Shown here: in pieces, positions 18,987 to 20,506 of the stretch
Numbering within the stretch: the stretch's first letter is position 1
Layout: each line of letters starts with the position of its first letter
Assembly: GCA_030064755.1 (NCBI GenBank)
Contig: JASJEH010000041.1
Location: 1 to 34,011 of the forward strand
DNA from: Methyloceanibacter sp.
Lineage (GTDB): Bacteria > Pseudomonadota > Alphaproteobacteria > Rhizobiales > Methyloligellaceae
Direction: 5' to 3'
Length of the DNA: 34,011 bases
Notes under the pieces: model-generated
Seen by the model: the letters and a program-made list of their open reading frames with translations, nothing else
The model's database searches: none
Told to the model about the DNA's origin: nothing
Program-made: the position numbers and the translations under genes

Positions 18987-19616
18987 ATGTTCGCGGTCAT
19001 TCGCACGGGTGGCAAGCAGTATCGCGTGTCGCCGAACGACATTATCGAGATCGAGAAGATCGCCGGGAATCCGGGTGACATCGTCGAGCTCTCCGAGGTT
19101 TTGCTGCTGGGCGGCGAGGGCGCCGCGACAACCGGCAGCCCGACGGTCTCGGGCGCTATGGTGGCTGCCGAGGTCGTCGAGCAGAAGCGCGGTGACAAGA
19201 TCATCGTCTTCAAGAAAAAGCGCCGCCAGGGCTATCGCCGAACAAAGGGTCATCGCCAGGAGCTGACGGCCCTGCGCATCACTGAGATCCTTACGGACGG
19301 GAAGAAACCCTCTAAGGCTGCCGCCAAGAAGGCGCCGACGAAGACTGAGGGCGAAACAAAGACCGCGCCGACAAAGCCTGCAGCAGAAAAGACTGCTGAA
19401 ACGGCCGAGGCTGCGCCGGCAAAGAAAGCGCCTGCGAAGAAGGCCCCGGCCAAGAAGGCGGCGCCAGCCAAGAAAGCCGCTGCGAAGAAGGCGCCGGCCA
19501 AGAAGGCTGCTGATGACGCGGCGCCAGCAAAGAAGGCCGCCGCTAAGAAGGCTCCGGCCAAGAAGACGGCAGCGAAGAAGGCCACGGCCAAAAAGGCCCC
19601 GGCCAAGAAGAGCTAA
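18987..19616 (+). CDS. rplU: 50S ribosomal protein L21 with long Lys/Ala/Pro tail
   Basis: Large-subunit protein that binds 23S rRNA near L20. Residues 1-105 are a normal L21 ([18 protein letters not shown], then [17 protein letters not shown] and a final [10 protein letters not shown]). Residues 106-209 are an added low-complexity tail built of PAKKA/AAKK repeats, like a histone H1 or Hc1-type DNA-binding tail. E. coli L21 has 103 residues, so this is twice the usual length; lysine/alanine extensions of L21 do occur in related alphaproteobacteria. ATG 18987 is fixed by homology. rpmA starts 12 bases downstream, and both genes share the near-consensus promoter at 18866. Confidence 0.97.
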
Positions 19617-19628
19617 AGGAACACCACC

Positions 19629-19892: not shown

Positions 19893-19926
19893 GGCGCGAT
19901 CGCTTCCAGACTTTGTGAGTTTTGCG

Positions 19927-19953
19927 CGCGCCCGTCACTTTGCGGGCGCGTTT
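19927..19953 (+). terminator. Hairpin terminator after rpmA
   Basis: Perfect 8-bp stem CGCGCCCG/CGGGCGCG (19927-19934 and 19943-19950) with an 8-base loop, followed by TTT. The T-run is short, but the position 35 bases after the rpmA stop supports it. Confidence 0.7.
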
Positions 19954-19975
19954 GCATATGTACGCTAGCCAAACC

Positions 19976-20506
19976 ATGCAGATCAGAACGCAACGGCTGA
20001 GTTTGCGGCCGCTCGATCATGCCGACGTGCGTCCGATGAGCCTGCTTGCGGGCGACTTCGATGTCGCGCGCATGACCGGGATGATTCCGCACCCTTATAG
20101 CGAGGCGGCGGCCCGAGCGTGGGTGGACCGAGTCAGTCGAGGTGAGGAGGGCGTCGTTTTCGCCGTCACGCGTGACCGGACGCTGATTGGGTGTTCAGGC
20201 TATATGCCAATGGACGCGGAACATGCGGAACTTGGCTATTGGATTGGCAAGCCCTATTGGGGCGCGGGGTTCGCGACCGAGGCCGTGCGTGCCGTCGTCG
20301 CTCATGCCTTCGATGCCCATGGCTTTGCGTATGTCCGAGCCGGGCACTTCCAAGACAACCCCGGCTCGCGGCGCGTGCTCGGCAAGCTTGGCTTTGCGCC
20401 AGAGGGCGAGGAGATGCGCGACTGCGTGGCACGCGGTGAGCCAGTACACTGCCTGACCTATCGGCTCGACCGGCGTCGGGCGGCGGCCGCGCTGCGGCAT
20501 CCATAG
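19976..20506 (+). CDS. GNAT family N-acetyltransferase (RimJ-like)
   Basis: 176 residues. It transfers an acetyl group from acetyl-CoA to an amine. The acetyl-CoA-binding motif A is ELGYWIGKPYWGAGFATEA (residues about 83-101). The N-terminus (IRTQRLSLRPLDHADV) and the late NPGSRRVLGKLGFAPEGE segment match RimJ/RimL-type enzymes, which acetylate protein N-termini, but the target is not known. The frame is open from 19922 within the terminator; ATG 19976 is chosen because homology begins there (ATG 19958 is an alternative). No good ribosome site is seen. A GNAT gene between rpmA and obgE is common in this order. Confidence 0.85.
   Translation: MQIRTQRLSLRPLDHADVRPMSLLAGDFDVARMTGMIPHPYSEAAARAWVDRVSRGEEGVVFAVTRDRTLIGCSGYMPMDAEHAELGYWIGKPYWGAGFATEAVRAVVAHAFDAHGFAYVRAGHFQDNPGSRRVLGKLGFAPEGEEMRDCVARGEPVHCLTYRLDRRRAAAALRHP

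Follow-up and report, generated by a model that had tools for sequence, protein, structure and literature searches.

Ribosomal protein L21 of one bacterial family ends in a positively charged, predicted disordered tail whose composition is kept beyond simulated drift and which may bind RNA

Why should ribosomal protein L21, a component of the 50S subunit, continue beyond its conserved core into a long tail built largely from lysine, alanine and proline? The question is raised by the rplU gene in a stretch of 34,011 nucleotides, hereafter the window, for which a reading of the sequence alone had described a 104-residue Lys/Ala/Pro tail after a complete L21 core, without a frameshift. That description proved correct, as core and tail lie in one open reading frame, the 312 nt of the tail adding 104 codons in the frame of the core, and the core matches the Pfam model Ribosomal_L21p over its full length (model positions 1-99 of 99) at 131.2 bits against a cut-off of 27. 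With this complete domain above its cut-off and rpmA adjoining, the window protein is a true bL21. The features of the locus are collected in Table 1.

Table 1. Features of the rplU region, in window positions
Feature	Position	Strand	Details
rplU ORF for L21	18987-19616	+	ATG 18987, stop TAA 19614-19616, 209 aa
rplU L21 core, residues 1-105	18987-19301	+	Pfam PF00829, residues 1-101, 131.2 bits
Lys/Ala/Pro tail of L21, residues 106-209	19302-19613	+	net charge +26, predicted disordered
Junction GKKPSK between L21 core and tail	19299-19316	+	sequence comparison, alignment
Degenerate tandem array, [10 protein letters not shown] units	19413-19610	+	TRF
Shine-Dalgarno-like AAAGGA over rplU stop	19615-19620	+	8 nt ahead of rpmA start
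rpmA, ribosomal protein L27	19629-19892	+	PF01016, E 8.7e-38
GNAT acetyltransferase gene between rpmA and obgE	19922-20506	+	PF13302

The tail stops 12 nt upstream of rpmA, and among 12 members of the genus that we examined the distance from the rplU stop to the rpmA start was 12 nt in nine and 11 nt in three. Together with the AAAGGA sequence that overlaps the rplU stop, translational coupling of the two genes appears likely. The GNAT acetyltransferase gene further downstream was considered as a tail-specific partner and rejected. At loci where the sequence runs on for 1100 bases or more past L21, such a gene was present in 18 of 37 with a long tail, 7 of 13 in which L21 bears a helix-hairpin-helix (HHH) domain, 1 of 6 with a short tail and 11 of 76 with a bare L21. 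As it also follows HHH-bearing L21 and that of tail-less members of the order (L002, L021 and L024), it is not specific to the tail.

The tail comprises 40 alanines, 33 lysines, 12 prolines, nine threonines, five glutamates, two serines, two aspartates and a single glycine, and contains a tandem array with a period of 15 nt and 67% matches by TRF. When the 12 [AP]AKK units were compared, synonymous codons differed from unit to unit, with third positions varying in three of the four codons, which indicates that the units are not recent copies of one another at the DNA level; the near-constant first and second codon positions are uninformative because the units were chosen by their amino acids. 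An AlphaFold model based on an alignment of 13 sequences assigns residues 1-110 mean pLDDT values of 68-95 in 10-residue blocks, while residues 113-204 fall below 50 and the tail blocks lie at 35-47; the tail is predicted to be intrinsically disordered.

The likeness to histones that had been attributed to this tail stands for its composition, which resembles that of H1, but does not extend to membership of the curated H1-like families. The window L21 matched HC2 at 26.9 bits, below the Pfam gathering cut-off of 40, and hist_H1_lk_Burk at 28.3 bits against a cut-off of 80. The same genome (G000) encodes two other products that do exceed the HC2 cut-off, namely a 444-residue HC2-like protein of ARKTAARK repeats on contig 16 (L247; 83.4 bits) and an 881-residue frame with PAKKPQAKK repeats on contig 146 (L219; 58.4 bits).

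We then compared L21 across relatives, taking the class as Alphaproteobacteria and the order as Hyphomicrobiales on the strength of named matches and the sequence-only reading. Of 30 family genomes, 27 had an L21 match, and leaving out three with a broken frame gave 24 intact L21 proteins. Every one of these, the window's included, carries a tail without HHH, 51-105 residues long when counted from one residue before the tail start given in the sequence-only reading. Their net charge ranges from +3 to +26 (mean +19), lysine, alanine and proline together average 80%, and lysine makes up a fraction of at least 0.30 in 23 of the 24. Tail length runs from 52 to 105 residues among species of the window's genus. 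The junction GKKPSK recurs in 20 of the 24 tailed proteins and in two that bear HHH (L006 and L017), and in an alignment of this region G105, K106, S109 and K110 are invariant in all eight rows. The exception in composition is a species of the same genus (L025, from genome G003, rated 100% complete), whose 52-residue tail is 15% lysine, has a net charge of +3 and contains none of the nucleic-acid-binding motifs discussed below; it offers a test, provided by nature, of the importance of the charge.

Outside the family, the arrangement changes. Our order sample comprised one genome from each of 31 other families, of which 29 gave an L21, all of them read: 20 end in a linker and HHH (one of these, L146, is cut at a contig start), six are tail-less, two have a long tail without HHH and one has a short tail. 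The HHH linkers span 31-63 residues with net charges of +1 to +10, and the family tails carry a higher charge; no HHH follows the core of the window L21. The near-neutral tail in one species of the same genus and the six tail-less members of the order together indicate that L21 can do without such a tail.

The class sample held 96 genomes, 93 with L21. Besides the window's own, 70 loci were read, comprising 30 bare proteins, 29 with a tail of at least 30 residues and no HHH, six with a short tail and five with HHH; 22 unread loci have open frames of at most 115 residues, and second, weaker matches in two genomes were left uncounted. Twenty of the 29 long tails contain at least 60% lysine, alanine and proline and have a net charge of +5 or more. 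In a phylum sample, stop-to-stop frames of at least 180 residues, a proxy for tailed proteins counted by eye, were found in 16 of 31 class genomes (the window's included) versus 2 of 87 matched genomes outside the class. Among the best 80 loci from named genomes, 17 have a long tail without HHH, two have HHH, five have a short tail and 56 are tail-less; Sneathiella litorea (L057) is one tailed example among the matches listed. The earlier statement that extensions of this kind are present in some relatives was thus right and understated, given that they occur in 24 of 24 intact family proteins and, at a length of at least 30 residues without HHH, in 29 of 92 other class genomes.

The three family genomes set aside above belong to the window's genus and are each one base short at a shared position of the L21 core (L031 in G004, L032 in G013 and L033 in G012), after which L21 continues in another frame. 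The hexamer at the break site occurs 61 and 64 times per 100 kb and 41 times per 80 kb in the broken genomes versus 60 times per 100 kb in G014, and as it is not clearly depleted, a general error at this hexamer is not shown. Measured against G014, in a comparison whose frames may include many that are not genuine genes and in which G012 is too small for a verdict, frame-split genes numbered 15 of 82 in G004 (5 of 87 in the reverse direction), 8 of 62 in G013 (9 of 55) and 3 of 24 in G012 (1 of 24). Since an excess is seen in G004 only, sequencing error is supported for that genome alone and G013 shows none; the obgE frame of G013 is among the split ones. No slippery sequence was seen by eye at the break, and a programmed frameshift in the L21 of these three genomes is a candidate.

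Where did the family tail come from? In a tree of the L21 core and L27 (123 rows, 189 columns, built by a quick method and rooted for drawing only), the 24 tailed family rows form one group (SH-aLRT 88), and the next branches outward are the HHH rows L006, L005 and L045 (SH-aLRT 84, 87 and 81), with a further three HHH rows and the bare rows L002 and L144 lying beyond them. Support is moderate, and the labels tailed, HHH and bare require 33 changes over all rows of the tree. As the tailed family is nested among HHH-bearing ones, HHH was probably lost within it, and we think it likely, from these sequence comparisons, that a single loss took place in the family's common ancestor and that the remaining linker lengthened and gained charge.

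The HHH module itself persists in these bacteria. A match was found elsewhere in all 30 family genomes (one of them partial), at one to four places and never beside L21; in the six genomes where the two share a contig they are 51-67 kb apart. Of two copies in the window's genome, one is carried by a protein that, on visual inspection, likely has a membrane segment. At L131, L133 and L245 the module forms the end of small proteins that likely have a membrane segment at the N terminus, and two of these have a Lys/Ala linker (both features judged by eye); it is common to unrelated proteins of the family.

We next asked whether the tail is conserved beyond drift, as an alignment had been proposed to reveal. 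Its composition is kept beyond simulated drift; its length, at 51-105 residues, is not. In nine family pairs, which overlap in members and were aligned by a protein-guided repeat alignment that favours low pN, tail pN/pS was 0.07-0.40 versus 0.02-0.18 for the core, the tail being the less constrained part in all nine. The pair L027/L028, which is ungapped and of equal length, has seven synonymous and three nonsynonymous tail differences, a ratio of 0.13 (Fisher p 0.0014). Neutral simulations of point mutation in the window tail (60 runs per model, with neither indels nor repeat turnover) yielded median ratios of 0.92 and 1.00 with minima of 0.67 for flat and 0.65 for GC-rich base composition; these runs reached a pS of about 0.3, and most real tail pairs are higher. 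Under such drift the lysine fraction fell from 0.32 to 0.07-0.20 (20 runs for each of two models).

Being kept under selection, floppy and strongly positive, the tail probably grips RNA or DNA. We searched for the PUN (unstructured nucleic-acid-binding) motif, which the available text of PMC11662656 defines by a regular expression and describes as binding RNA irrespective of sequence, with arrays of the motif annealing RNA and driving RNA-dependent condensation. The window L21 contains five such motifs in its tail and one in its core. Shuffled versions of the tail average 2.1, only 1 of 500 reaching five, and the tail satisfies the counting rule of at least five motifs with at least three within 150 residues. 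Three or more motifs were found in 14 of 24 family tails versus none of 20 HHH linkers and 6 of 29 long class tails. Counts rose above those of shuffled sequences in 4 of the 24 family tails (reached by at most 32 of 500 shuffles), so that in the others the motif pattern is explained mostly by composition.

Binding to rRNA or DNA is in keeping with the charge, the predicted disorder, the five PUN motifs and the selection on composition. RNA would be the likeliest partner because L21 is part of the 50S subunit, although we would put the chance that the tail binds RNA first at about even. With equal reserve, we propose that these L21 proteins carry, where their relatives have a linker and HHH, a selected, disordered, polycationic arm that aids assembly or folding by binding RNA. 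Once HHH had been lost in that ancestor, the linker would have grown and become positively charged; the resulting arm would sit outside the folded core of the 50S subunit and bind RNA phosphates without sequence preference, either on its own rRNA during assembly or on neighbouring RNA, and might thereby act as an RNA-annealing or assembly aid. Counted against this proposal are the near-neutral tail of L025, the lack of any tail in six members of the order and at 30 of the 70 class loci, the weaker constraint on the tail than on the core in all nine pairs, and PUN counts that in most family tails do not stand out from shuffles.

The tail might instead bind chromosomal DNA and so keep ribosomes, or L21 that is free of them, close to the nucleoid. 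It resembles the tail of AlgP in amino acids, charge and disorder, it has the weak HC2 similarity noted above, and the available text of PMC9239181 reports DNA binding by KPAA peptides in vitro and a presumed role of PhaF in tethering granules. That similarity is nevertheless below the HC2 cut-off in a genome with separate HC2-like proteins above it, and on a subunit made mostly of RNA a polycation would presumably meet RNA first. We regard such tethering, argued largely by analogy, as unlikely, and less likely than an RNA-binding arm.

Still less probable, in our estimation, is that the tail is a functionless leftover of the linker that was tolerated once HHH had gone and has been kept rich in lysine and alanine by repeat turnover and high GC. 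Its variable length, the one near-neutral tail, the tail-less relatives and a pN/pS above that of the core in all nine pairs are what such a remnant would lead one to see. It sits poorly with the synonymous differences between units, with the ratio of 0.13 in a pair where no gap had to be placed, with the loss of roughly 40-80% of lysine under simulated drift and with a tail charge exceeding that of the HHH linkers.

Binding of another polyanion such as polyphosphate, suggested by analogy with AlgP, whose tail is similar in composition and which associates with polyphosphate granules (PMC9239181, available text), seems to us very improbable, as ribosomes would offer RNA first. The least probable reading is that the tail is cleaved off after translation, its sole use being as a spacer by which ribosomes reach the start of rpmA, for although the rplU stop overlaps the Shine-Dalgarno-like site of rpmA, coupling requires only a nearby stop, not a charged tail, and the amino-acid composition is under selection.

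If the RNA-binding arm that we prefer is real, a core ribosomal protein has had a folded domain replaced by a selected, disordered, charged arm. More broadly, L21 of this class may carry an exchangeable nucleic-acid-binding appendage, present as HHH on a linker, as a selected polycationic PUN-like arm or not at all; we offer this as a tentative idea that we consider doubtful. Were it true, the exchange in this family would amount to a natural experiment, a disordered arm having assumed the role that a folded domain had on the ribosome, and tailed, HHH-bearing and bare L21 are available for comparison within one bacterial class. It would also make H1-like ribosomal tails, such as those of mosquitoes, testable for roles in ribosome assembly, RNA folding or tethering. 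Our literature search, which covered few subscription papers, found, among the papers listed, none on an L21 tail or on HHH on L21, from which we do not claim absence from print; the available text of one review (PMC11764897) contains no word beginning "L21".

Several known systems resemble the window L21 in part. One is the NCBIfam family PRK12278, L21 with a C-terminal extension, which shares the core and junction, NF008916 spanning residues 1-167. The window protein, however, scores below its cut-offs (156.7 versus 193 for NF008916 and 105.5 versus 281 for NF008915) and is without HHH, whereas most members of the order that we read have a linker and HHH, the module in which the PRK12278 model itself presumably ends. 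By sequence, the HHH of these L21 proteins is the same module as that in the 41 kd subunit of NADH:ubiquinone oxidoreductase (9wqv) and in the reaction-centre O chain (8yy9), where it lies near the end of both solved proteins; the window L21 is without it.

For the tail, similar extensions are described in the available texts on mosquito ribosomal proteins, where RpS6 has a lysine-rich, H1-like, low-complexity C-terminal tail thought to be convergent (PMC548281) and RpL23a also has an H1-like extension (PMC11764897). These are other ribosomal proteins, in a eukaryote, and no common descent is implied. AlgP and PhaF likewise carry a disordered Lys/Ala/Pro repeat tail on another domain, and the window tail has a composition of the AlgP/PhaF type. 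Their KPAA tails vary in repeat number and are thought to tether granules (PMC9239181, available text), but the window units are [10 protein letters not shown] with lysine doublets, the carrier is ribosomal and DNA binding would be by analogy only. Yeast Loc1p and the window L21 both reach the PUN count, yet Loc1p is an assembly factor whereas L21 is an integral ribosomal protein, and while the PUN arrays of Loc1p bind and anneal RNA (PMC11662656, available text), the window tail is PUN-like by its motif count.
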